Source: Oscillibacter valericigenes
GTDB lineage: Bacteria > Bacillota > Clostridia > Oscillospirales > Oscillospiraceae
Assembly (NCBI RefSeq): GCF_021531435.1
Contig: NZ_JAFBIS010000008.1
Location: 1 to 64,000 of the forward strand
DNA length: 64,000 nt
Direction: 5' to 3'
The notes under the pieces are model-generated. The model was not told where the DNA came from. It saw only the letters and a program-made list of their open reading frames with translations, and made no database searches. Within the stretch, counting starts at the first letter, position 1. Each line of letters begins with the position of its first letter. The position numbers and the translations under genes were made by a program. Shown here piece after piece: positions 87 through 11,800 of the stretch.

Positions 87-506
87 TTAATATCCCACAA
101 TCCCAGTCACTACAACCGATTTGCTCGACTTGTTTCTGATCATCAACGTATAGCTGCCATTCTCCGGGACCTCAATTGTTTTGTCAATGCTGCCTGTTGT
201 CACATTGACATAGTGGTATACTCCATCTGAATCGACTAATCCAAGGTCTACACTGGCATTTTCCGGCGAATAGTTTGCTCGGATCCGGACAGTTTCCCCA
301 GCCGCCATCGAAAAAGCGGGTTTCACTGATACATTGCTGTTCGCCTTTACGGTACAGTCAAGAGTCCCTGTCGCCCGTGCGGTAATTGTCTCCGTTGCTT
401 CAAGTTCTCCTGTCTTCGCACCGAGTTCATCAGTTGCTCCGGCGCTGGTACACAAGCATCCGATTATCATCGCTCCGGTCAATACCATACACAAAAACTT
501 CCGCAT
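87..506 (-). CDS. small secreted protein, module copy B
   Basis: A 139-residue protein with a signal peptide (MRKFLC start, hydrophobic core, AGA-type cleavage near residue 24) and a Ser/Thr/Val-rich mature part that looks like one small beta-sandwich domain, containing GETVRIRANYSPE and ending TGIVGY. I chose the ATG at 506 because GGGAGGTG lies just upstream. It starts 16 bp after the membrane-bound XRE gene and is probably co-transcribed with it. A paralogue lies at 3279-3698; a hand alignment gives about 73% identity. No function recognised; an exported partner or ligand of the regulator is an inference from pairing alone. Confidence 0.75.
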   Translation of the reverse strand: MRKFLCMVLTGAMIIGCLCTSAGATDELGAKTGELEATETITARATGTLDCTVKANSNVSVKPAFSMAAGETVRIRANYSPENASVDLGLVDSDGVYHYVNVTTGSIDKTIEVPENGSYTLMIRNKSSKSVVVTGIVGY

Positions 507-522
507 CTGCTTCACCTCCCTC

Positions 523-987
523 TTAATCAGACTCGTCTAACTCTCCAAGTTCTACGGTATCGCCCTCGGTATCACTCAGAATTTCACTTTCCATTTCGCT
601 AAAATTGATTTTATCTGAATTTTCTTTCTCTGTTCCCGAGAGTATACGTACAACTGTAGCGGTCAGGACCACCAATAACAATAAAATTACAATGGCAAAC
701 AGCTTGCGCTGTTTACCCTTTCCAAGTTCTGGCTCTCGGTGTTCTTCTTCCAACCGATCTTTTAGAGGAACCTTCTCCGGCTCTTCTGTCGCCGTGTCAT
801 CCAGAAGAATTTCCAAAGGGATACTAAATAATTTGCTCAGGCTCTGCAAATTCTCTGTCGATGGTCTTGATGTCCCTGCCTCCCAGCTAGATATAGCCTG
901 TCTGGACACGCACAGCATTTCGGCCAGTTCCAATTGAGACAGTTCTTTTTCCTTTCTTAAGGTTTTTATTTTTTGATTCAATTCCAT
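523..987 (-). CDS. membrane-anchored XRE regulator, module copy B
   Basis: A 154-residue protein with an N-terminal XRE/Cro helix-turn-helix (residues about 5-60, SRQAISSWEAGTSRPS), a charged linker, one hydrophobic segment (about residues 96-118), and a short acidic tail with the motif EMESEI. The predicted topology puts the HTH in the cytoplasm and the tail outside. I start at MELNQ (987), which follows GGAG; an upstream in-frame codon at 1011 is less likely. The leader holds two palindromes that could be operators, so autoregulation is plausible. The paralogue is at 3715-4188. Such HTH-TM proteins occur widely in Bacillota, but the signal sensed here is unknown. Confidence 0.85.
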   Translation of the reverse strand: MELNQKIKTLRKEKELSQLELAEMLCVSRQAISSWEAGTSRPSTENLQSLSKLFSIPLEILLDDTATEEPEKVPLKDRLEEEHREPELGKGKQRKLFAIVILLLLVVLTATVVRILSGTEKENSDKINFSEMESEILSDTEGDTVELGELDESD

Positions 988-1019
988 TTTTTCATCTCCA
1001 AATTTAATCAAAATCCCAT

Positions 1020-1049
1020 TAAATGTAAACCGTGTGCGGTTTACATTTA
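1020..1049. promoter_or_regulatory. palindrome, candidate operator (copy B)
   Basis: Perfect 13-bp arms TAAATGTAAACCG / CGGTTTACATTTA around TGTG. It sits about 35-60 bp upstream of the XRE start codon, where an autoregulatory operator would be expected. The half-site CGGTTTAC recurs in the palindrome at 1273-1325. Confidence 0.6.
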
Positions 1050-1066
1050 GGCAAGTATTACTTGCC
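1050..1066. promoter_or_regulatory. second palindrome GGCAAGTA-T-TACTTGCC (copy B)
   Basis: An abutting 17-bp palindrome with 8-bp arms, immediately next to the 30-bp one. The same pair occurs at 4221-4267. It could be a second operator or, with the T-rich tract that follows on the plus strand, part of an attenuator. Confidence 0.45.
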
Positions 1067-1077
1067 TGCCGCCTTTT

Positions 1078-1182
1078 TTAGCATTTTTTTAGCTTTTCAT
1101 ACTCTGCTAAGGCATCCACATTTTCTTTTCTGAATCGATCCATTTGCTCAATTATCAGATTGCTGACACTCCGCCTCTTCAT
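1078..1182 (-). CDS. 34-codon small ORF in the repeat (copy B)
   Basis: The ORF starts MKRRSVSNLIIEQ and ends EYEKLKKC; it is charged and probably helical. An identical ORF lies at 4279-4383. No good ribosome binding site is visible, and identity between copies could simply reflect the repeat. It could be a real small protein, a sigma-factor-derived remnant read in another frame, or chance. Confidence 0.3.
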   Translation of the reverse strand: MKRRSVSNLIIEQMDRFRKENVDALAEYEKLKKC

Positions 1183-1272
1183 ATAAGCTATTATACCACG
1201 AATGGGCTTCTATGTCTTGAACCACAAGGCTTTTTCTATTATTCAGGATACATTATTTAGAAGACTAACCGT

Positions 1273-1325
1273 ATAACGGTTTACCCGTTCATGCCCTGTA
1301 TGGGCACAAACGGGTAAACCGTTAT
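1273..1325. repeat. long palindrome with CGGTTTAC half-sites
   Basis: Perfect 17-bp arms (ATAACGGTTTACCCGTT and its complement) enclose a smaller GCCC/GGGC stem. It shares the CGGTTTAC core with the leader palindromes at 1020-1049 and 4221-4250. It could be an additional operator, or a second stem behind the terminator at 1326-1374. Confidence 0.6.
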
Positions 1326-1374
1326 AAAAAGGACGGTGTAAGGTGATATCATATCACCCTACACCGCCCTTTTT
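1326..1374 (-). terminator. bidirectional-type terminator after the secreted protein gene
   Basis: A long stem (AAAAAGG-CGGTGTA with its complement) capped by a perfect GGTGATAT-C-ATATCACC hairpin. T-runs on both strands. It follows the stop at 1415 on the minus strand. Confidence 0.7.
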
Positions 1375-1414
1375 ATTCATCATTTTATGTGCTCTTATCG
1401 CAGACACTTAGTCC

Positions 1415-2404
1415 TTATGCTTCCTGATAAAACAGCATATTACGACCATAATCTGCAGGGCAGTTATACAACATATGAGAGTACAACCCCCAATTTCCCC
1501 ATTTAGATGTTACGGTGATAGGAGGATTAGACCCGCTACCAGAACCAACATTAGTTACAACTGCAGAATGCAGATACTCTGTGCTTGATGCGCTCATTCT
1601 ATACACAGCAATATTTCCAGATTTGATTATTCCCGTATTTTCCTCGTAGTAGTCGTCCTCCATAAAATCATCAGGCCAATCAATCCACCACAAGTTAGAA
1701 CTGGAGCGATTGTACCAAGCATACGAGTGACAATTATACTTTGTTGTAGGTTGTCTTAACGGCTCAAGGCCATACGCATCTCGAACATATTCATTTATTT
1801 CTGTACGATCACCTGCGGTCATTTCTGATCTGTCATAATGACACCAACTGCTTGTCACCTGATTTCCACTGGGAGTTCTTGGTAGCGAAACCCTTGTAAT
1901 TTCAATATTTTGCTGATTCTCCCATTCTTCGCTGTTTTCTTCCAGAGTTATTTCGATTGCTCTTCTGACTACATAGCTCATACCTGACGAACGAGTAGTT
2001 TGCTGCTCTTCATAGTATTCTGCTAAACAGAGCATTCCATCTGGTCTACTTTCAAGCTCCTGTAATCCATTAAAACCATTCCGAACAGTCTCGTATCCAA
2101 GTTCCTGTGTCGAGAAGGAATCCATATCTGGAAAATAAGGGTAATTGACAACGCTTTCCACGAGAGCTTCTGTTGTCATTTCATTTAGTACATCTTGAGG
2201 AATTTGCAGCATTTCGACCTTTTCTGCATGACTCTCTATTGCAAACCATTCATCGGTCCCAGGCTCGATAGGATACTCATACGGTTCGTCAATCGTATAT
2301 CCCTCATTATTGCTGGAACCTTCGTAAGCGGACGTCTGAAAACTGACCATTGAGGTCATCATTGCAAGTGCAAGGAAACAACTCAATAGACGCTTAAGTT
2401 TCAT
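1415..2404 (-). CDS. secreted protein, candidate papain/NlpC-like cysteine enzyme
   Basis: A 329-residue protein with a signal peptide (MKLKRLLSCFLALAMM, cleavage near SAY), an acidic Glu/Tyr-rich N-terminal half, and a compact C-terminal domain. That domain holds KYNCHSYAWY, then EYLHSAVV, then SKWGNWGLYSH. A buried Cys followed by a His about 70 residues later in a beta-strand context resembles papain-fold NlpC/P60/CHAP-type enzymes; this is my inference and I cannot name the family. I chose the start at 2404, preceded by AAAAGGAGG. It lies 60 bp after the 232-residue secreted protein gene and ends before a strong terminator, so the two probably form one transcript. Confidence 0.7.
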   Translation of the reverse strand: MKLKRLLSCFLALAMMTSMVSFQTSAYEGSSNNEGYTIDEPYEYPIEPGTDEWFAIESHAEKVEMLQIPQDVLNEMTTEALVESVVNYPYFPDMDSFSTQELGYETVRNGFNGLQELESRPDGMLCLAEYYEEQQTTRSSGMSYVVRRAIEITLEENSEEWENQQNIEITRVSLPRTPSGNQVTSSWCHYDRSEMTAGDRTEINEYVRDAYGLEPLRQPTTKYNCHSYAWYNRSSSNLWWIDWPDDFMEDDYYEENTGIIKSGNIAVYRMSASSTEYLHSAVVTNVGSGSGSNPPITVTSKWGNWGLYSHMLYNCPADYGRNMLFYQEA

Positions 2405-2464
2405 ATGCAAGTTCCTCCTTTTATCACTCAAAGGTTCTTCGATTACTTCTTAAACATAAGGGAC

Positions 2465-3163
2465 TTATCTAACATCAGAAACGCGATACCGTCCCTGAAT
2501 AACCATCGTTGCCCAACCTGGATCACTATATGTGCTTGCTCTACAGCTAAGCATCTCATCATACACACCATCCAGAATAGCTAAGATTCCTTCAGAAAGT
2601 CTTGTTTTCACAAGCAAGCTCTTACCTGTTGATGCGTTTGTTACCCCAACATTGTAGGTTTCACTTGAAGATAACGAAGTCGCACCTAAAGCAAGGCACG
2701 TTCCATATTCATAAGGGTCATTCTGAAAAGTCTCAAATGAATCTGCGTTCTGACTCTGTGACGCCTCTTCCAAATAAACTCGTTTGGAACAGAAGCGCAG
2801 CCAATCATCTGGGCCTACACCAATCTGTGGCAGTGCATCTACTTCATACTCTGTAATTTCTTCAGTAGGTACATCCCAATCAGGAAAAATCTCAGAGAAA
2901 TGCGGCAGGACCTCTATAATTTCCCCGGTCTCAGCATCCATAACCGCTCCATTGTAACCATCAGCAACCCAGTCTGTGTTATAGATAATCTGTTCTCTAG
3001 CCTTCAAAATTTTTTTCTGCATATCGGGCGAAGCTTCGTCAAGTTCAAGATATGCAATATCATTCCCTAACTGCTTTTCGTGATCCGCTTCAGCGGCAGA
3101 TGCCGTTACCGTTGTACCAATTAACATCATCCAAGCCAACACAACAGAAACAATCTTTTTCAC
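2465..3163 (-). CDS. secreted protein of unknown function, 232 residues
   Basis: Signal peptide (MKKIVSVVLAWMMLIG, cleavage near ASA) followed by about 205 residues rich in Asp, Glu and Tyr, with three scattered Cys. The start is a GTG preceded by GAGAGGAG. It sits between the two XRE/secreted-protein modules and directly upstream of the candidate cysteine enzyme. The N-terminal mature part (KILKAREQIIYNTDWVADGYNG) could be a propeptide-like or inhibitor-like segment, but nothing in the sequence proves it. I do not recognise the family. Confidence 0.7.
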   Translation of the reverse strand: MKKIVSVVLAWMMLIGTTVTASAAEADHEKQLGNDIAYLELDEASPDMQKKILKAREQIIYNTDWVADGYNGAVMDAETGEIIEVLPHFSEIFPDWDVPTEEITEYEVDALPQIGVGPDDWLRFCSKRVYLEEASQSQNADSFETFQNDPYEYGTCLALGATSLSSSETYNVGVTNASTGKSLLVKTRLSEGILAILDGVYDEMLSCRASTYSDPGWATMVIQGRYRVSDVR

Positions 3164-3278
3164 AATTTGCTCCTCTCTTTTTCAAAGTTAGCCTCTTACT
3201 TACATTCTGCGGTAACAAGTGGCTGATGGCCTATTAACTTTGAAAGGTGTTACCGATTCATCCGACGGTTCTCTTGTC

Positions 3279-3698
3279 TCAATATCTCACGATTCCAGTT
3301 ACTATGACCGATTTGCTCGAATTGTTTCTGATCATCAGCGTATAGCTTCCATTCTCCGGAACCTCAATCGTTTTATCAATACTGCCTGTCTTCACATTGA
3401 TATAATGGAATACTCCTTCTGAATCAATCAATCCGAAATCCAAGCTGGCATCTTCCGGCGAGTAGTTTGCGCGAATTCGAACAGTTTCCCCTGCTGCCAA
3501 CGAGAAAGCTGGATTCACTGATATGCTCCCATTCGCTTTTATAGTACAATTAAGAGTTCCTGTTGCCCGCATAATGGCGGTTTCCGCCGTTTCATATTTC
3601 CCCGAAATCACATTCACTTCTTCAACAGCTCCGGCGCTAGTACATAAGAATCCGAGCATCATCACCCCGGTCATTACCATACACAAAAACCTGCGCAT
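3279..3698 (-). CDS. small secreted protein, module copy A
   Basis: 139 residues, paralogue of 87-506. It has the same architecture: signal peptide ending CTSAGA, a variable 20-residue linker, then a conserved domain with GETVRIRANYSPE and NGSYTLMIRNNSSKS. Differences are concentrated in the linker just after the signal peptide, while the domain is nearly unchanged, as expected if the folded domain is under selection. The start at 3698 is preceded by GGGGGTG. It lies 16 bp downstream of the cognate XRE gene, the same spacing as in copy B. Confidence 0.75.
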   Translation of the reverse strand: MRRFLCMVMTGVMMLGFLCTSAGAVEEVNVISGKYETAETAIMRATGTLNCTIKANGSISVNPAFSLAAGETVRIRANYSPEDASLDFGLIDSEGVFHYINVKTGSIDKTIEVPENGSYTLMIRNNSSKSVIVTGIVRY

Positions 3699-3714
3699 CT
3701 TCTTCACCCCCTTC

Positions 3715-4188
3715 TTAATCAATTCCAACAAGTGATACTTCTGTTGTTTCCTCGGTAGTATCTATGATCTCGCTTTCCATCTCGTTAAAGGTTAGTGCTT
3801 CTGATTTATCTTGGTTTATCCCTCTGTATGACTGTGCGCTGACGGCGAGCAGAACCAGCAGAAAGCCAAAAATTATAATAACAGTAAGTAATTTATACCG
3901 TCTGCCATCTTTGCCCTTTTCCTGTTCCAATTCCCCGGTTTCTTCATGCAACTCCGCTACAGGTATCTTCTCCAGCTCTGGCTCCGCTGTTACTGTATCA
4001 TCCAGGAGCATTTCCAGCGGGACATTATATAGCCTACTCAGACTCTGCAGATTTTCTGTCGACGGTCTCGATGTTCCTGCTTCCCATCCTGTTATAGCCT
4101 GCCTGGACACACACAGCACTTCAGCAAGCTCAAACTGGGACAGTCCCTTTTTCTTCCTTAGGACTTTTAATTTCTGAGACAATTCCAT
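3715..4188 (-). CDS. membrane-anchored XRE regulator, module copy A
   Basis: 157 residues: XRE helix-turn-helix (residues about 5-60, SRQAITGWEAGTSRPS), a charged Glu/Lys linker, one transmembrane helix (about 101-121) and an acidic exterior tail again containing EMESEI. The HTH is very close to that of copy B, while linker and membrane segment differ, which suggests that both copies may bind the same operators but respond to different inputs. Start at MELSQ (4188) after GGAG. Upstream is the 191-bp repeat with its two palindromes. Confidence 0.85.
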   Translation of the reverse strand: MELSQKLKVLRKKKGLSQFELAEVLCVSRQAITGWEAGTSRPSTENLQSLSRLYNVPLEMLLDDTVTAEPELEKIPVAELHEETGELEQEKGKDGRRYKLLTVIIIFGFLLVLLAVSAQSYRGINQDKSEALTFNEMESEIIDTTEETTEVSLVGID

Positions 4189-4220
4189 TCTCTCATCTCC
4201 AAATTTAATCAAAATCCCAT

Positions 4221-4267
4221 TAAATGTAAACCGTGTGCGGTTTACATTTAGGCAAGTATTACTTGCC
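4221..4267. promoter_or_regulatory. paired palindromes, candidate operators (copy A)
   Basis: The 30-bp palindrome (13-bp arms, TGTG centre) at 4221-4250 abuts the 17-bp palindrome at 4251-4267. Position relative to the XRE start is the same as in copy B. Confidence 0.6.
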
Positions 4268-4278
4268 TGCCGCCTTTT

Positions 4279-4383
4279 TTAGCATTTTTTTAGCTTTTCA
4301 TACTCTGCTAAGGCATCCACATTTTCTTTTCTGAATCGATCCATTTGCTCAATTATCAGATTGCTGACACTCCGCCTCTTCAT
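4279..4383 (-). CDS. 34-codon small ORF in the repeat (copy A)
   Basis: Same sequence as the ORF at 1078-1182. Here its 5' part overlaps, in a different frame of the same strand, the 3' end of the truncated sigma-factor ORF. This raises the chance that it is a frame-shifted remnant rather than an independent gene. Confidence 0.3.
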   Translation of the reverse strand: MKRRSVSNLIIEQMDRFRKENVDALAEYEKLKKC

Positions 4384-4498
4384 AATATAAGCTATCTTTA
4401 GCTGTCCGCTCCATTCGGGCATGATACTGTTCAAAGGTTTCTATAAATTTCTGTCTGTCCTCGTCGCTCTCTAACGCAACCAACAGAACCGCCAGCAT
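4349..4498 (-). pseudogene. truncated sigma-70/ECF-like gene (49 codons)
   Basis: The ORF begins MLAVLLVALESDEDRQKF and continues IETFEQYHARMERTAKDSLYYEEAE before an early stop. This matches the usual N-terminus of clostridial ECF-like sigma factors (short hydrophobic start, DEDR-KFE--Y, region 2.1 AY-IL--EEDAED), but region 2 breaks off after EEAE and region 4 is missing. GGGTGG precedes the ATG. The simplest reading is an ancestral sigma-factor gene that lost its 3' part when the XRE module was placed there. A functional 49-residue fragment cannot be excluded. Confidence 0.5.
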
Positions 4499-4732
4499 AA
4501 TACCACCCACCCGTTATCTAAGTGCCTATAACTAACTAATTTATAAATGCAGTTGAACCGCAATTCCTCACACCATTTTTTCAAAAATCTTTCATCGTTT
4601 TTATTTGAAAGCAAGTTCTCTGATCTGTTATCAGTATAGCACGGCGCATCCCAAATCTCCACGGGGCACACCGTACTGCTATGTGTAGCCGCTACAAGAA
4701 GAATCTGGCCGCAAAAATTGCGCCGCATAAAC
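4499..4732. other. non-coding spacer
   Basis: AT-rich sequence between the sigma-factor remnant and the mobile element. A promoter for the minus-strand block should lie here, but no -35/-10 pair stands out. I see no gene. Confidence 0.5.
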
Positions 4733-4766
4733 AAAAAAGACAGGCTGAACTTCCAGCCTGTCTTTT
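4733..4766 (-). terminator. terminator of the DUF6076 gene
   Basis: Perfect stem AAAAGACAGGCTG / CAGCCTGTCTTTT with a 6-nt loop; T-run on the minus strand. It begins 4 bp after the stop at 4770. Confidence 0.85.
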
Positions 4767-4769
4767 CTT

Positions 4770-5846
4770 TCAAAACGCCTCGAAGCGCTTCCGCATCTCC
4801 TCGTCATCGAGCTTGCCATGCTCCGATTGCTCCAACACCTTCATCGCCTCCGCGACAGCGGCGTTCCACTCCTCCACACTGATCTTCTTCCGATTCTTCC
4901 TCTGCTTCAGCCGGTTATAGGCTCGGTCATACTCCACCTGAGCCGGGGTGCGGTTTGCCTTGCCCTGGGCCTCTTTCCGGTGTGCGCCCACCTTGCGGCA
5001 GGTGCGTTCCGTCTCACCGGGGGCAATGTTGTTGCAGTAGCAGGTGTTATATCCTGCTGTCAGCAGAAAATACTTTCCACAGTTATGGCAGCGGCGGGGT
5101 GCGTTGCCCACAGCTAATCCCCGGTAGAATTCCGTCCGCAGGAAGTCCGTCAGGCTGTTGAAGGTGGCCTTCTCCGCTATAAAGATCTCGCCCTCCTTCG
5201 TCTGGTGCATCATAGGAACGAAGCTCACCTCCATGGGGAAACTCTGGGTGAAATCCTCGCCAAAAAGATGCGCGGCTACGGAGAGCATCTGGGCGTAGAA
5301 GAAGGAGTACGCCTCGGCATAGGCCCCGCTGTTTCTCCGCTTCAGCGGCTCAAAATATTTCTCTGTCATAATGGCGATTTGCTGGCGAAGCCTCATAAGT
5401 TCGCTGGCGAAATCCGCCAGGGCAATGATCATTCCCTGGTAAAGCGCATGGCCCTCTGAAGCCGGGTCCTGCACCTGTGCCCACTTCTCTTCGTCCGCAA
5501 GGAGCCGCTCTAAGGTGTGGTAATTGCTCTCCTCATCCATCTTCAATTCCCGGTACACTGGTAATGTAAACACAACATCCCAGACAGCGTTCAGCTTCTC
5601 CTGTGCGGAGGCTGCGGCGCTGTCTGTTTTTTCTGCCAAGAGTGCCTGAGCGGCCGGGACAAACTCCCTCACTCTCCGATTAATTTCATGGAGAACTTGC
5701 TCATCCAAGTTCATGATATCCACGCAGCACTGTCCGATAGGAACATCCCTCTCTCCAACAAAAACATGGTCATCATGAAAGAACACTGTGAATTGGTCGT
5801 AGGTGTAGGTGAATGGTATCTCTATGCGCTCCATCTTTTCTTCCAT
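4770..5846 (-). CDS. DUF6076 family zinc-finger protein
   Basis: 358 residues. The C-terminal third contains a Cys-rich segment, CHNCGKYF followed by CYCN and a later Cys, then Arg/Lys-rich helices, a pattern I associate with the DUF6076 proteins common beside integrated elements in gut Bacillota. The N-terminal two thirds are helical and acidic with no clear motif. The start at 5846 follows AAGGGGG. It is transcribed away from the excisionase/relaxase/integrase genes and marks the left side of the mobile element. The molecular function is unknown; nucleic-acid binding is only suggested by the Zn-binding Cys and basic tail. Confidence 0.7.
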   Translation of the reverse strand: MEEKMERIEIPFTYTYDQFTVFFHDDHVFVGERDVPIGQCCVDIMNLDEQVLHEINRRVREFVPAAQALLAEKTDSAAASAQEKLNAVWDVVFTLPVYRELKMDEESNYHTLERLLADEEKWAQVQDPASEGHALYQGMIIALADFASELMRLRQQIAIMTEKYFEPLKRRNSGAYAEAYSFFYAQMLSVAAHLFGEDFTQSFPMEVSFVPMMHQTKEGEIFIAEKATFNSLTDFLRTEFYRGLAVGNAPRRCHNCGKYFLLTAGYNTCYCNNIAPGETERTCRKVGAHRKEAQGKANRTPAQVEYDRAYNRLKQRKNRKKISVEEWNAAVAEAMKVLEQSEHGKLDDEEMRKRFEAF

Positions 5847-6904: not shown

Positions 6905-7324
6905 TTGAGCAAGAAAGAAAAATTCGCTCTCTACCTGACGCCGGAGAAAAAGGCAATTTTGGAGAAGCGGTATCAGGAGGACGGCAGCCGCAGCATCACC
7001 GGATTCATTGAGCGGGCCATTGATTTCTACCTGGACTATCTCAGTGCCAACGACGCCGGGCTGTTCCTCCCAACCTCCATCCAGTCCTATCTGGACGGTC
7101 GGGTGGGTCAGTTGGAAAACAAAATGGCGTTGCTGGTCTACAAACAGGCGGTGGAGTTGGATATGCTCTCCGGGATCATCGCGGACAGCTTTCAGTTCAG
7201 CGAGGAAGAACTGCGCCGACGCCGTGCGGAGAGCGTCCGGAATGTGAAGCAGACCAATGGCCGCATCTCGTTCGAAAAACGGGTGCGGGAATCTGTGAAG
7301 GATGATGACGGATGGCAAGGCTGA
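6905..7324 (+). CDS. MobC-like relaxosome accessory protein
   Basis: 139 residues from a TTG start that follows GGAAAGGA; ATGs at 6875 and 6884 are alternatives. The N-terminal half (LYLTPEKKAILEKRYQEDGSRSITGFIERAIDFYLDYL) reads as a ribbon-helix-helix fold, as in plasmid mobilization accessory proteins that bind oriT. The C-terminal half is charged and coiled-coil-like. Its 3' end overlaps the relaxase start by 13 bp, so both are made from one transcript. Family assignment rests on this architecture and the relaxase next door, not on a diagnostic motif. Confidence 0.65.
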   Translation: MSKKEKFALYLTPEKKAILEKRYQEDGSRSITGFIERAIDFYLDYLSANDAGLFLPTSIQSYLDGRVGQLENKMALLVYKQAVELDMLSGIIADSFQFSEEELRRRRAESVRNVKQTNGRISFEKRVRESVKDDDGWQG

Positions 7325-9270
7325 TCGTCAAGAGTCCGTACATCAAGTGTGGAGGTGGACACTCAGCAGGCGGCTACATGCGATACATCGCCACCCGCGA
7401 ACGAGTAGAGTTGATTCAGGATGACCGCCCTCCCACTCGAAAACAGGAGCAGCTTATCGTAAAACTGGTGAAGGATTTTCCTGACGCAAGGAAGCTGGAT
7501 GAATATGCTGACTACCAGGAGCATCCCACCAAGGCCAACGCCTCGACGTTCATCTCTCAGGCGTTGGAGGAAAACTGGAGTGACGTTCAAAAATCAGATG
7601 GCTACATGAAGTACATCGCAACGCGGCCGAGAGCGGAACGGCTCGGCTCTCATGGGCTCTTCGGTGACAAAGATGGTGTGGAGCTGGACAAGGCCATGGC
7701 GGAACTGGAGAACTACACGGGAAACGTATGGACGCACATCATCTCCTTGAAACGGGAGGACGCAGAACGACTGGGCTATGACAATGCCGGGGCGTGGAGA
7801 AATCTTCTCCGCGCCCACCGCAACGACATCGCCGCCGCCATGAACATTCCGCCCCAGGACTTTCGTTGGTACGCGGCATTTCACGATGAAGGCGACCATC
7901 CCCATGTGCACATGATGGCGTGGTCCGTAAAACCCGGGCAGGCGTATCTGTCTCAGGACGGCATCCGGCAAATCAAATCCAAACTCACCAACGACATCTT
8001 TCAACAAGAGATGCTGCACCTCTATGAGCAGAAAACTGTTTCCCGTGACCAGCTGGTACGGGAAGCGCGGCAGGCCATGCGGGAGTTGGTTCGGCAGATG
8101 CGTAACAGGATCTGCGACCACCCGGAGGCGGAGCGTCTCATGCAGGAGCTGGCACTCCAACTGGAAACGGTCAAGGGGAAGAAGTCCTACGGCTATCTTC
8201 CCAAGAAGCAAAAGGCTCTGGTGGATGAAATCGTGGACCAGATGGAGCAGCTCCCTACCGTGGCCGAGTGCTACGAAAAGTGGTGGCAGCTACAAAGTCA
8301 GGTGGAAGATTTCTATTCTGAGAAGGAGCGGCACCGCCCGCCGCTGTCACGGCAGAAGGAATTCCGCCAAATCAAGAATGCGGTCATTCAGGAGGCGAAG
8401 ACTATCCGGCTGGGAGAGATCACCTTCGAGGATGATGCCCTGCGGCAGAGTGATGAGGTGGATGAAGATGAAAATGGGCCCTGGGACTTCTGGACGCTGC
8501 GCATGGATATACAGGATGAAGGCTCTTCACTGGCGGAGCGGGATGATGCCGTGGAGAGTATGCGGGAGCTGGCAGAGAACGGCAATGTTCGTGCTCAATA
8601 CTTCATGGGAAAGCTGTGCCGAGATGGTCCGTTGCTGCCGCCGGACTGGGTGATGGCCCGGTACTGGTTTGACAAAGCGGCGAAGCAGGGATACGCTCCC
8701 GCCCAGTATGCTCTGGGAAAGCTATATCTCTCTGATGATGCCAGCGTCCATGATTCCGAGCTTGGAATCCAGTGGTTGGAGCACGCCGCCTACAATGGAA
8801 ACCACTATGCATCCTACCGTCTGGGCAAAGAATATCTGAAAGGCGAATCGGTAAGAAGGGATATCCGCAAGGCCATGGATCACATCTACACATCCGCCCA
8901 GGCTGGAAATCCTCATGCGCAGTATCTGCTGGGGAAGCTACTGCTCCAAGGCAAGGTGATTGAGCAGGACAAGGATGCGGGTATCCAATGGCTAACCCAG
9001 GCGGCGGAGCAGGGACACAGCTATGCGCAGTGCCTTCTGGAAAGGCAAAGGGCTTCGATAGCGTCGGAGGTTTTCCTTGCGGTGACGAGGCTGCTCCACC
9101 ACATGGCGAACGTCTTTCAGGACAAGTCCCTGCCGCAGAGCGGCACAGGGCTCATCCATGCCGACCGCAAACTCCGTGAACAACTGCGAGAGAAGCGCCT
9201 CGCCCATGGTCACAAGGAGAATGACCATGAGGAACAGCAATATGGCGGTTGGAATATGACCATGAGGTAG
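7312..9270 (+). CDS. MobP3-type relaxase with C-terminal Sel1 repeats
   Basis: 652 residues. The N-terminus carries two YIATR motifs (about residues 24 and 101), and the HUH metal site is HPHVHM (residues 196-201), as in MobP-type relaxases that nick oriT through a tyrosine. A helical middle (about 240-400) is followed by about four Sel1-like repeats (about 425-590; EQGHSYAQ, GVRR/KG motifs). Sel1 tails usually mediate protein contacts and could dock to a transfer machine. No coupling protein or type IV secretion gene is visible, so transfer would rely on a helper element. It is overlapped by mobC upstream. Confidence 0.88.
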   Translation: MARLIVKSPYIKCGGGHSAGGYMRYIATRERVELIQDDRPPTRKQEQLIVKLVKDFPDARKLDEYADYQEHPTKANASTFISQALEENWSDVQKSDGYMKYIATRPRAERLGSHGLFGDKDGVELDKAMAELENYTGNVWTHIISLKREDAERLGYDNAGAWRNLLRAHRNDIAAAMNIPPQDFRWYAAFHDEGDHPHVHMMAWSVKPGQAYLSQDGIRQIKSKLTNDIFQQEMLHLYEQKTVSRDQLVREARQAMRELVRQMRNRICDHPEAERLMQELALQLETVKGKKSYGYLPKKQKALVDEIVDQMEQLPTVAECYEKWWQLQSQVEDFYSEKERHRPPLSRQKEFRQIKNAVIQEAKTIRLGEITFEDDALRQSDEVDEDENGPWDFWTLRMDIQDEGSSLAERDDAVESMRELAENGNVRAQYFMGKLCRDGPLLPPDWVMARYWFDKAAKQGYAPAQYALGKLYLSDDASVHDSELGIQWLEHAAYNGNHYASYRLGKEYLKGESVRRDIRKAMDHIYTSAQAGNPHAQYLLGKLLLQGKVIEQDKDAGIQWLTQAAEQGHSYAQCLLERQRASIASEVFLAVTRLLHHMANVFQDKSLPQSGTGLIHADRKLREQLREKRLAHGHKENDHEEQQYGGWNMTMR

Positions 9271-9659: not shown

Positions 9660-10814
9660 ATGGCAAAACGCAGAGCAAATGGAGAAGGTAGTATCCGCAA
9701 ACGGTCTGACGGAAGATGGGAAGGGCGGTATACGGCAGGCTATGATCCTGAGACTGGAAAACGTATCGTAAAAAGTGTTCTTGGTAAAACGCAGGCAGAG
9801 GTAAAGGAAAAACTCCGGAAAGCTCTGGAGGAAACCCGTGAATTGGATATTATCCGCTCAGATGACTACACCGTGGGAGAGTGGGTGCAGACATGGTTTG
9901 AACTATACTCCAAACCCAATGTCCGGCCTTCCACAGCAGCGTATTACCGGCGGTTCATCGACTGCCACGTCATTCCATACATCGGACACATCAAACTGAA
10001 CAAGTTGACTGCCAGGGACATTCAAAAACTCTATAACGACCTGAAAGACCATGGTCGGGTACGAGAGGTTCTGAAAGCGAAGAAACCTGGTCTGAGCAGT
10101 TCCTATGTGCGTGGACTTCACATGATGCTCCACAACTGTTTTGAACGTGCCAGAAAAGAACGGCTCATCATGCGCAATCCCACCGAAGACTGCATCATAC
10201 CCAAAATAGAGAAAAAGGAAATGAAAATTCTTCGGCAGGAAGATATCGGTGCGTACCTCAAGGCAGCCGATGCCCGTGGAATGCTTCCCATGTTCTTTCT
10301 GGAACTGACCAGCGGTCTACGAAAGGGGGAACTGGTGGCTCTGCTCTGGAGTGACCTGGATATTGAGCACAAAACGCTGTCAGTGTCCAAACAGGCGGTT
10401 CGTGCCGAGGGCGGTGCTATCAAGGTGTCACGGCCCAAGACAGCGACATCTGTCCGAAAAATCTCCATCCCCCAGGAAGCAGTGGACTTGCTGGTACAGG
10501 AGCATAAGAAGCATCCGGACAATCCCTATATGTTCCCTTCCCCCAAGACCGGAGAGATGTGGTTCCCCGATTCCGTGGTCAACCTTCATAGAAAGATCCT
10601 GAAAGACGCAGGTCTGGAACAACTTCGTTTCCACGATCTCAGACACACCTTCGCGACCATGGCGCTTCAAAACGGTGTCGATGTAAAAACAGTATCCAGT
10701 ATGCTGGGCCACTACGACGCAGGCTTCACCCTGAGCGTCTACGCCCATGCCACCGACAGAATGCAGGAAGAGGCCGCGGAAAAGATGGGCAGTTTCATGG
10801 TACAGTCCATGTAA
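9660..10814 (+). CDS. tyrosine integrase
   Basis: 384 residues of the phage/ICE integrase family. N-terminal AP2-like arm-binding segment (about 1-60, RRANGEGSIRKRSDGRWEGRY), a SAM-like core-binding domain (about 70-180), and the catalytic domain with Arg221, His325-x-x-Arg328 (HDLRHTF), His351 (LGH) and nucleophile Tyr361 (VYAHAT). All five catalytic residues are present, so it should be active. GGGAGGTG precedes the start. It is the last gene of the element; candidate attachment sequences follow at 10878-10962 and in the tRNA-Thr genes beyond. Confidence 0.95.
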   Translation: MAKRRANGEGSIRKRSDGRWEGRYTAGYDPETGKRIVKSVLGKTQAEVKEKLRKALEETRELDIIRSDDYTVGEWVQTWFELYSKPNVRPSTAAYYRRFIDCHVIPYIGHIKLNKLTARDIQKLYNDLKDHGRVREVLKAKKPGLSSSYVRGLHMMLHNCFERARKERLIMRNPTEDCIIPKIEKKEMKILRQEDIGAYLKAADARGMLPMFFLELTSGLRKGELVALLWSDLDIEHKTLSVSKQAVRAEGGAIKVSRPKTATSVRKISIPQEAVDLLVQEHKKHPDNPYMFPSPKTGEMWFPDSVVNLHRKILKDAGLEQLRFHDLRHTFATMALQNGVDVKTVSSMLGHYDAGFTLSVYAHATDRMQEEAAEKMGSFMVQSM

Positions 10815-11145: not shown

Positions 11146-11184
11146 ATTACGAATCAGCTGCTCTACCGACTGAGCTACAGTAGC
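11146..11184 (-). pseudogene. 5' half of a second tRNA-Thr, broken after the anticodon
   Basis: On the minus strand this reads GCTACTG (acceptor 5' strand), then a D-arm and anticodon arm identical to the intact tRNA up to CGTAAT, after which similarity stops. The acceptor differs from the intact tRNA (GCTACTG against GCTGGAA), so it is not a simple duplication of it. It looks like the left-over 5' half of a chromosomal tRNA-Thr split by integration. The matching 3' half is not visible in this window. Confidence 0.7.
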
Positions 11185-11800
11185 ATAATATTCAAGCACG
11201 CTAGATGATACCACATTTTTTCCTCAGCGTCAACACCCATTTCGCGCGGAGAAATCCGGTCGATATACGCTCTTGTTTTGCATATTACTATTTGTATAGT
11301 TGCATGATCTCTTGCATTCTTTTGGTGTGTGGCTTTTCCCCGTTCGTAAATTTTTCGTTCGGTCCTGCAAAAAAACGACGATATTTCTCGATATTTTTCT
11401 ATATAATCCGAAAATTATTTTCCTGTTTATTCCATCTATCTCGATTCTTTTTTCATATATTCAATTTACATAAAACAATTTATAACATCCTTCTACAAGG
11501 AGTTATTCACATTTTCCACACAGTTTTCCACATCTGATTTTTCTTTTTATTTCAACATTTTAATTAATTTTATCCAGTTTTTTACATCCTCTGTAACAGG
11601 GATTTCACAGCCATCTTTTCTCTCGTTCAAAATTTACATAAAAATATATCCCGCAGTCCTTTATCCATTTTTCTACGTATTTTCCCTCCTCCAACAGCTT
11701 TTTACTGAAATCCCTCCGCATTTTCATCGAAAAAGGAAAGTTCCTTCCCAATATTATGCAAAGATAGTATCCAGCCATGCACAAAGGGCCGCATTTATAC
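11185..11800. other. AT-rich intergenic region
   Basis: About 600 bp, clearly richer in A+T than the genes that follow. Open frames here are low-complexity Phe/Ile/Tyr-rich and not credible as genes. It contains three same-strand DnaA-box-like 9-mers at 11503-11532. No tRNA, rRNA or known riboswitch seen. Confidence 0.6.
11503..11532 (+). other. cluster of three DnaA-box-like 9-mers
   Basis: TTATTCACA (11503), TTTTCCACA (11512) and TTTTCCACA (11524) in tandem. The first fits TTATNCACA exactly; the other two differ at the third base. They lie in a long AT-rich stretch but no dnaA, dnaN or other origin gene is near. Confidence 0.35.

Follow-up and report, generated by a model that had tools for sequence, protein, structure and literature searches.

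A membrane-anchored XRE regulator and its secreted neighbour as a putative split regulator of exchangeable cargo on mobile elements

Introduction

ToxR/TcpP/CadC-type regulators are generally described as proteins in which a cytoplasmic DNA-binding domain, one transmembrane (TM) segment and an outside sensing part are joined, sometimes with a partner gene next to them. Their DNA-binding domain is a winged helix, not an XRE domain. In the cI-cro/mtz-tim locus of Listeria, as presented in the available passages, XRE regulators adjoin a secreted metzincin and a partner linked to the membrane, and the locus is tied to mobile elements (PMC8235301). In the XRE-DUF397 pairs of Streptomyces, according to the passages available, an XRE gene precedes a small partner gene with paralogues, and a genome has several such pairs (PMC10364602).

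The locus described here lies at the beginning of a 64,000-nucleotide stretch (the window) from Oscillibacter valericigenes (GCF_021531435.1, contig NZ_JAFBIS010000008.1). It carries two modules, each with a membrane-anchored XRE regulator (X) and a small secreted protein (S). X and S probably constitute a split membrane one-component regulator of their own operon of exchangeable secreted cargo.

Results

Organization of the locus

The features are listed in Table 1. The first-pass annotation was right in recognizing two modules, but not in placing two further secreted genes simply between them as flanked genes: M2 and M1 are cargo downstream of module 2. The cargo of module 1 is beyond the contig end. 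The order on the related contig L119 is X1-S1-S3-M3. In the genome of the window, S3 and M3 stand at the start of another contig, C34, with an insertion-sequence-like piece apparently between.

X1 and X2 each hold a DNA-binding domain and a TM segment in one protein, as membrane one-component regulators do. The X family profile also matches the X proteins of other modules (matches below 60 bits and duplicate sequences were dropped). One TM segment and a net-negative tail are present in all 30 X proteins, which favours a split receptor; in the identical copy of X2 in locus L080 the TM segment begins at about residue 100 and the tail has a net charge of -8. A C-terminal Trp within the last four residues, found in 22 of the 30, is absent from both X proteins of the window, and this counts against it.

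Table 1. Positions of the features in the window
Feature	Position	Strand	Evidence or remark
S1, secreted GOLD/PPC-like β-sandwich protein (predicted)	87..506	-	in alignment A1; 72.7% to S2
X1, HTH_3 (XRE), one TM, acidic outside tail	523..987	-	HTH_3 E 5.6e-17; tail net -12
Leader copy 1, 192 bp	992..1183	-	identical to 4193-4384
Predicted promoter copy 1	1001..1029	-	-35 TTTACA 1024-1029, 17 bp, -10 TAAATT 1001-1006
Composite operator copy 1 (predicted)	1025..1065	-	one mismatch to GCAA-N7-TTGC-N6-GTAAACCG-N3-GCGGTTTAC
34-codon ORF copy 1, C-terminal remnant of a gene presumed ribbon-helix-helix (RHH)-like	1078..1182	-	score 74 to ORF upstream of L140 module (maximum of 5000 shuffles, 42)
Palindrome, found again beyond the cargo in other modules and, on plasmids, close to a recombinase-like gene	1263..1330	.	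sequence comparison
Inverted repeat downstream of M1, terminator-like	1324..1376	-	26-nt arms, 92% complementary
M1, tentatively a CHAP-like Cys/His hydrolase; secreted cargo, module 2	1415..2404	-	invariant residues, structure model
M2, secreted cargo of module 2	2465..3163	-	GTG start; no Pfam family above cut-off
S2, secreted GOLD/PPC-like protein (predicted)	3279..3698	-	structure model
X2, HTH_3 (XRE), one TM, acidic outside tail	3715..4188	-	HTH_3 E 3.1e-16
Leader copy 2, 192 bp	4193..4384	-	identical to 992-1183
Predicted promoter copy 2	4202..4230	-	-10 enriched at 17-bp spacing in a set of 29 leaders
Composite operator copy 2 (predicted)	4226..4266	-	same sequence as copy 1
Presumed RHH-like remnant copy 2	4279..4383	-	identical to copy 1
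MobL relaxase	7312..9270	+	E 2e-73
Tyrosine integrase of the mobilizable element bearing the array	9660..10814	+	Phage_integrase 2.5e-22
41-bp repeat flanking the element, right copy	11146..11186	.	100% identical to L080 3260-3300

The twin leaders

The leaders located 5' of the two XRE-TM genes are 100% identical over 192 bp, one more than had been counted by eye. The genes behind them are much less alike, as the first-pass annotation had also stated. X1 and X2 are 56.6% identical over 152 aligned residues (77% in the first 62 residues, 42% in the remainder), and S1 and S2 are 72.7% identical at the amino acid level, in agreement with a hand estimate of about 73%. The dS values between the paralogous genes are 0.7 to 1.6 (X and S), and four-fold sites differ at 16 of 32 positions in X and 21 of 54 in S. 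This means that 0 differences in 192 bp is far from the expectation for an even rate.

When 191 leader bases were searched against the host genome, two copies were returned, both in the window, so that a dispersed repeat was rejected; the O2 palindrome of the operator, with up to two mismatches allowed, occurs at the same two places only.

The identity might be explained by very strong functional constraint on the whole leader, as an RNA element or an essential small protein, and the 0/192 differences, the long palindromes and the 34-codon ORF would fit such a leader. Other leaders, however, have changed. In the operator half, four of them match the window leader at 73/85, 71/85, 70/84 and 71/83 positions (14-17% differing). 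In the ORF half, about one third differs where alignment is possible (matches of 65/98 in L081b and 67/105 in L140), and elsewhere only about 30 bases align. The outer 105 bp correspond to the ORF remnant, which is not seen upstream of 26 of the 30 modules; a match above every shuffle is confined to the window, its G073 twin, L081b and L140. In addition, L098 retains the right arm of O2 without a matching left arm, a pattern easier to square with an operator than with an RNA hairpin, and Rfam found only tRNAs in L080 and L096. Constraint on the whole leader is thus considered very improbable. Since the other leaders have diverged and the outer half is a gene remnant, the 192-bp identity is best read as a sign that the operator end was copied or converted recently, a supported conclusion that the first-pass annotation had anticipated. 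The strong leader function that it offered as another choice seems to hold for the 41-bp operator and the promoter, and not for the rest.

Pfam gave no family for the plasmid protein related to the RHH-like remnant. A candidate sigma-factor remnant upstream of copy 2 (ORF 4349-4510) had no Pfam match and none to one ECF factor. Ribosomal RNA beside the G073 module, guessed from odd ORFs, was not borne out; Rfam gave tRNAs only.

Operator and promoter

The functional part of the leader appears to be a 41-bp double palindrome that overlaps the predicted -35 element. In 149 genomes, all 19 operator sites precede an X start, and the reversed control gave none; the leader is not a widespread repeat untied to these genes. 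The operator score lies above those of 200 shuffles in 27 of 30 modules, and no operator scoring better than shuffles was found in L093, L094 and L146. With a spacing of 17, 22 of the 29 leaders show a -10 match, whereas each other spacing between 4 and 27 gives 0-5. Modules with operator scores under 14 did not enter this analysis, which removed L146. For the operator sites at L104, L107, L112 and L113, the X starts were taken from separate scans of these loci. The site association, the scores and the spacing support a regulator acting at its own operon; the three modules lacking a scoring site count against it. So does the position of the -10, which abuts the Shine-Dalgarno sequence in many leaders: a transcript from that -10 would lose the Shine-Dalgarno sequence. 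Activation is slightly favoured as the sign of control, given an O2 centre close to -40.5 and a -35 that is imperfect.

The secreted partner

The N-terminus of S is predicted to be signal-peptide-like, and its modelled β-sandwich matches solved GOLD/PPC domains. A search of PDB sequences with the A1 profile gave no match, and PHROGs gave none for S, M1 or M2. The family comprises 833 protein clusters at E 0.001, and a Pfam domain was present in none of the 120 clusters listed.

X and S are closely associated. Of 36 distinct S genes, 32 have X immediately upstream, partial X in L126 and L133 included; counted were distinct S with at least 600 bp of upstream DNA, after S matches below 100 bits and duplicates had been dropped. 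In an order-wide search, X was upstream of S or in the same frame in 10 of the 11 S loci run. Two of the 11 repeat known modules (the X sequences of L165 and L167 are those in L128 and L143), and the set excludes L164 and L175, the latter being the window itself. Both counts favour a joint function, as do two fusions. HTH, TM and S are in one reading frame in L173, from one genome, and in L147 S is fused to a BlaR1-type sensor (Peptidase_M56) beside a BlaI-type repressor (Penicillinase_R). A point on the other side is the weakness of the operator-like site that precedes this L173 fusion, with a score of 16 out of 25. It should be mentioned that each type of S fusion is known from one genome.

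A toxin-antitoxin or toxin-immunity pair, with S as toxin or immunity protein, would likewise have a short XRE gene ahead of a second short gene on a mobile element, and antitoxin models did match X, only in the HTH and all below their cut-offs. PADLOC likewise matched X in the HTH only, and neither S nor six other proteins tested. The partner in a type II pair is cytoplasmic, whereas S is predicted to be exported and lies beyond the TM segment in the fusions. In L083, moreover, X and nearly all of S are identical before different cargo, which means that S is not cargo-specific. With S joined to a sensor in one case and to X in another, such a pair seems very improbable.

It is somewhat less improbable, though still unlikely, that X regulates the operon and S is one more secreted cargo protein with no contact to X. 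S is translated beside other secreted cargo, second S genes occur within the operons of L084 and L119, and in L174 an S-like domain is part of a metalloprotease-like protein without X, which also weakens the case for a split receptor. The HTH-TM-S frame of L173 speaks against S as mere cargo, and so do the following correlations.

Co-variation and mosaic modules

The operator co-varies with the HTH, and the outside tail of X with S. In partial Mantel tests, leader and HTH correlated given S (0.42, 0/2000 permutations), and tail and S correlated given HTH (0.29, 0/2000), both in favour of a split receptor. The values for leader and S given HTH (0.05, 582 of 2000) and for HTH and tail given S (0.05, 499 of 2000) were low. 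A weak correlation of HTH and S given tail persists (0.22, 23/2000) and counts against it. The sequences are related, so the permutation counts are not clean probabilities.

Individual modules show the same division. The two modules of L081 have leaders 96% and HTHs 92% alike, yet their tails are 19% and their S proteins 42% identical; the suggestion that operators are shared while sensor tails differ is well supported by this pair. Between L083 and L081, tail and S are each 91% identical at an HTH identity of only 66%, in other words a domain swap. This swap and the tail-S co-variation given HTH are hard to reconcile with S as mere cargo.

Cargo genes

The first gene downstream of S is secreted-like in 31 of 33 S entries (38 entries, five of which have no called downstream gene), as expected of a cargo slot behind a split receptor. 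Among 20 cargo proteins scanned, 17 had no Pfam family above cut-off; the families seen in cargo are Zn-PLC, Amidase_6 and matrixin, and no domain is common to the cargo. The M2 family has 16 proteins, M2 included. In M1, C224, H225 and H278 are invariant in 52 sequences. Its model (pLDDT 90.4) found CHAP-type domains in Foldseek at E 0.08-0.2 only, none under E 0.001. Its homologue P0132 carries PF05257, which we take to be CHAP. M1 is tentatively a candidate CHAP-like Cys/His hydrolase.

The cargo might be antibacterial effectors with membrane-bound immunity genes, the module then serving a mobile element as a regulated cassette of secreted toxins. The enzyme families just named and M1 would suit this, and many modules have a gene for a lipoprotein or membrane protein behind the cargo. 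The passages on Listeria describe a comparable secreted metzincin with a TIMP-like lipoprotein beside XRE regulators (PMC8235301). On the other hand, most scanned cargo has no family, a small membrane gene is missing from module 2 of the window, and envelope, host or niche functions are equally possible. We place the toxin cassette somewhat short of an even chance. It is compatible with a split receptor formed by X and S and does not exclude it.

Mobile carriage

The modules appear to be carried by small plasmids and, in the window, by a mobilizable element. The L080 copy of its flanking repeat overlaps a tRNA gene. The plasmid protein near the module-end palindrome is Phage_integrase-like, with a match below cut-off. 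Five viral stretches fitted the pattern of phage carriage and none was confirmed, and tblastn of PLSDB plasmids with S2 gave no match. Modules recur in other genomes, and pairs are not peculiar to the window: three contigs, the window's included, bear at least two. Such contigs were seen only in G000, G049 and G012 of 12 relatives with S, which is unfavourable to a split receptor.

Discussion

Architecture, X-S association, operator, promoter spacing, mosaics and fusions can be read directly from the sequences; binding of X to the operator, contact of S with the tail and sensing are what we infer from them. The cytoplasmic HTH of X would bind the 41-bp double palindrome over the -35 of its own operon, and the single TM segment would place the short acidic tail outside the cell. 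There, secreted S may work with the tail as the sensing part, and the X-S pair would control whichever secreted proteins occupy the exchangeable cargo slot downstream. Carried by small plasmids and mobilizable elements, the modules would duplicate and recombine, and operator with HTH and tail with S might move as separate specificity units. The chances seem evenly balanced that this amounts to a mobile family of split receptors, in which recombination re-pairs the two units into insulated outside-to-DNA channels on plasmids, each with a payload slot. The first-pass annotation thus stood in part; it did not include the variable cargo, S as the likely partner of the X tail, the fusions, plasmid or IME carriage, and the RHH-like remnant.

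If correct, this explanation would define a signalling family and give many of the hypothetical secreted proteins in gut Bacillota a possible role. Operator, HTH, tail and secreted sensor would be natural modules with which to build control from outside to inside. Direct tests are possible with the HTH-TM-S fusion and with a contig, probably circular, of the named culture Agathobaculum desmolans ATCC 43058.

Comparison with known systems

No description of the X-S-cargo make-up was found in the open-licence papers searched. X-S resembles ToxR/TcpP/CadC-type regulators in its layout. Unlike them, it has an outside part made of a short tail and a separately secreted β-sandwich, together with variable cargo and a conserved double operator. 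XRE-DUF397 pairs share the gene order and are proposed to be type II toxin-antitoxin pairs or regulators; TM segments, secretion and a cargo slot are not mentioned in the passages available (PMC10364602). The Listeria locus shares the XRE regulator, the secreted protein and the mobile-element link, but has two CI/Cro-type regulators as a switch and one cargo type; the word 'transmembrane' is absent from its main text, and the available passages describe no S gene (PMC8235301). The BlaR1-BlaI system differs in that X itself bears the HTH and the X-S pair of the window has no protease: no family of M56 peptidases or BlaI-type repressors was found by Pfam in the eight window proteins scanned, whereas both are present in L147. 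The fusion in that locus is the likeness to BlaR1-BlaI, and it suggests that S can serve as the outside part of a BlaR1-type sensor.

Association of X and S

The sequences indicate that X, the XRE (HTH_3) regulator with one transmembrane (TM) segment and an outside tail, and S, the small secreted GOLD/PPC-like protein, belong together. The S set comprised 38 distinct matches of at least 100 bits, and X lay immediately upstream in 32 of the 36 that had 600 bp of upstream sequence. X was partial in two of these 32 (L126, where the HTH continues straight into S, and L133). Three of the other four stood behind another S match in the same operon (L135 being an interrupted S), and one was inside another protein (L147). 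A wider search covered 295 genomes of the order and detected S at E 1e-8 in 11, its own genome counted; X was upstream or in the same frame at 10 of the 11 further S loci. All 30 X proteins have a TM segment with preceding positive charges, followed by a tail of 28-46 residues whose net charge is negative. Trp is among the last four residues in 22 of the 30; X1 and X2 of the window are without it.

S also occurs in fusions, one case each. In L173 (G274), HTH, TM and S are in a single reading frame, which is preceded by a weak operator-like site (16 of 25); the gene that follows has a signal-like start. In L147, a Peptidase_M56 (BlaR1) protein (E 1.4e-40) has S as its C-terminal part and adjoins a Penicillinase_R repressor (E 4.2e-20); the S part is 48% identical to the S family over 88 columns. 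In L174, an S-like domain precedes a metalloprotease-like part with a metzincin-like HExxH motif in one secreted protein. These fusions appear to place S outside the membrane and within signalling proteins, and it is mainly for this reason that S is named a sensor part.

Coordinates of the features discussed
Locus	Position	Strand	Feature
Window	992-1183	minus	Leader copy 1
Window	4193-4384	minus	Leader copy 2
Window	1190-1195		TATAAT with upstream TG just ahead of leader copy 1, absent from copy 2; possible second promoter
Window	1263-1330		Palindrome
Window	4349-4510		53-aa ORF overlapping leader copy 2; looks like a sigma-factor start, which neither Pfam nor comparison with one ECF factor supported
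L126	4038-4583		About 40 first HTH residues joined directly to S in one frame, without TM; would reflect either fusion by deletion or decay of a module
L174	886-1884		S-metalloprotease-like fusion
L080 (G073)	4607-5173		M2 cut after about 161 codons, continuing into sequence common to C34; as if the second module were deleted
L160	8483-8880		Empty cargo slot on a 9.3-kb plasmid, probably circular, that has ParA, an RHH-like gene and the palindrome
L161	1965-6333		X-S replaced in the same plasmid slot by ECF sigma factor, DUF4367 protein, and different secreted and membrane proteins
L140/L141 (JAETTD010000026.1, JAETNT010000084.1)			Equal 12,747-bp contigs in two differently named MAGs, as expected of a shared plasmid
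C88 and C34 contig ends	Window 1; L096 1-100		Ends GTAACTGTTCAG... / ...CTGAATAGTTAC, with AATAAAAG on either side; look like two sides of an insertion-sequence-like element

Identity of the leaders

The leader consists of two parts, an outer 105-bp ORF (34 codons) and an inner part with the operator. The two window leaders are without any difference over 192 bp, and a search of the 2.8-Mb genome with 191 leader bases found copies at these two sites only. The genes themselves have diverged: amino acid identity is 56.6% between X1 and X2 and 72.7% between S1 and S2, dS is 1.6 and 0.8, respectively, by NG86 (1.2 and 0.7 by YN00), and four-fold sites differ at 16/32 and 21/54. In 50-base bins, the two modules are 94-100% identical as far as the start codon, 76-84% from +1 to +150, 44-70% between +150 and +450, where the linker, the TM and much of the tail lie, and 58-90% beyond this to the end of S. 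Alignment thus bore out the first-pass annotation, which had described identical leaders (191 bp) before diverged genes and an S pair about 73% identical.

That annotation attributed the identity either to copying or conversion, or to strong function of the leader. Constraint on the whole leader is disfavoured by four leaders from other genomes, which have diverged. The operator half of the window leader matches them at 73/85 (L081b), 71/85 (L081a), 70/84 (L082) and 71/83 (L140) positions; the ORF half matches at 65/98 in L081b and 67/105 in L140, and only about 30 bases of it can be aligned to L081a and L082. Other arrays seem to show the same copying process over other lengths. In L083, the two modules are 100% identical between -200 and about +850, a span that takes in X and almost the whole of S, after which the cargo differs. 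In L081, identity between the two modules is 88-100% over -100 to +150, which covers the leader and the greater part of the HTH, and then drops to about half. Because the other leaders diverge and these arrays show the same process, the 192-bp identity is read as copying, not constraint.

The 34-codon ORF aligns, with a score of 74 (maximum 42 in 5000 shuffles), to the end of the ORF that precedes the L140 module. Such a match exceeded every shuffle in only 4 of 30 modules (window, its G073 twin, L081b and L140). The product of the L140 ORF is tentatively taken to be RHH-like by resemblance; Pfam assigned no family to a related plasmid protein. ParA and RHH-like genes, partly broken, are found upstream of modules at several loci.

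Operator and predicted promoter

The inner leader contains a 41-bp double palindrome (O1 and O2), GCAA-N7-TTGC-N6-GTAAACCG-N3-GCGGTTTAC. The 30 distinct modules were scored without gaps against 200 dinucleotide shuffles each; the motif was above every shuffle in 27 modules and not in L093, L094 and L146. Allowing up to 3 mismatches, 149 genomes gave 19 sites in 10 genomes of one genus, Dysosmobacter by named records, and 0 sites for the reversed pattern. An X start is downstream of all 19. X is open in frame at 17 (L117 having 96 codons only, and L100 reaching the contig end), stops early at L101 and is truncated within a few codons at L118.

The 3' end of the motif is TTTAC, and 22 of 29 leaders have a well-matching -10, with a weighted score of 3.2 or more, exactly 17 bp past TTTACN; each other spacing from 4 to 27 gave 0 to 5 leaders. 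If the predicted -10 occupies -12 to -7, the centre of O2 falls near -40.5 and that of O1 near -64. Activators are centred at -41.5 and -61.5 (CRP) and at -42 (lambda CI), and the predicted placement of O2 and O1 would be close to the class II and class I positions. A repressor acting at -35 is a possible alternative. The predicted promoter meets one difficulty: many leaders have just 0 to 2 bases between the end of the -10 and the Shine-Dalgarno sequence, so that an mRNA starting 6 to 7 bases past the -10 would lack this sequence.

Two proposed specificity units

Partial correlations were calculated on distances among 30 modules, with 2000 permutations. Leader and HTH were correlated given S (partial r 0.42; 0/2000), as were tail and S given HTH (0.29; 0/2000). 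The values were 0.05 both for leader and S given HTH (582/2000) and for HTH and tail given S (499/2000); for HTH and S given the tail, 0.22 remained (23/2000). The clearest apparent swap involves L081 and L083. The L081 pair has 96% of the leader and 92% of the HTH in common, with 19% of the tail and 42% of S, as had been anticipated in the proposal of shared operators with different sensor tails. The first L081 module and L083 have 91% of both tail and S in common, with 66% of the HTH and 61% of the leader.

Carriers and cargo

In the window, the array occupies one end of an element that encodes a tyrosine integrase, a MobL relaxase and an HTH_17 protein. The element is flanked by a 41-bp repeat, of which one copy overlaps a tRNA gene in G073, which is another species of the genus. 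A G073 contig is 99.965% identical to the window over 8,500 bp; beyond this, two short stretches have 97% and 91% identity to C34, another contig from the genome of the window. The G073 stretch examined is without X1, S1, M1 (cargo of module 2), S3 and M3 (cargo of module 1), and M2 of module 2 is shortened. L119 is the uninterrupted state of the junction between C34 and the window contig, C88.

At other loci, the neighbours of modules are ParA/RHH-like genes, or a recombinase-like protein of 340 aa whose Phage_integrase match (E 1.5e-4) is below cut-off. L160, L161 and L143 have ends that overlap exactly (123, 95 and 34 bp) and are probably circular. The first two are contigs of this kind without X or S, and L143 is an A. 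desmolans contig carrying a module. A palindrome of about 50-60 bp (1263-1330 in the window) marks the downstream side of 10 module ends from 9 loci, one end following a short X without S, and was not found at the other module loci searched; where a recombinase gene is near, it lies about 0.5-0.75 kb ahead of it. L160 and L161, compared via pieces L155 and L158, differ upstream and are 96% identical from the palindrome on. The slot is empty in one and holds a sigma factor, a DUF4367 protein and its own secreted genes in the other. The palindrome may mark a cargo exchange point.

Of 38 S entries, some with common cargo, 33 had at least one gene called downstream, and the first such gene was secreted-like by a crude rule in 31. 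Among 20 cargo proteins compared with Pfam, Zn_dep_PLPC, Amidase_6 and Peptidase_M10 were above cut-off, one each, and 17 had no family above it. In M1, Cys224-His225 and His278 are invariant over 52 sequences; the predicted structure is confident, and CHAP matches are only weak. In many modules the cargo is followed by a lipoprotein or small membrane protein. That the cargo is antibacterial is a guess.

Comparison with known systems

The X-S modules form a real, coherent mobile regulatory family, of which no published description was found in the open-licence literature. The nearest parallel found to the arrangement of cargo and lipoprotein is in Listeria, where a secreted metzincin and a TIMP-like lipoprotein adjoin XRE regulators (PMC8235301). 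The family would fall within a broad class already known, that of membrane one-component regulators; its unusual features are the proposed split sensor, the double operator, the two exchangeable specificity units and the payload slot.
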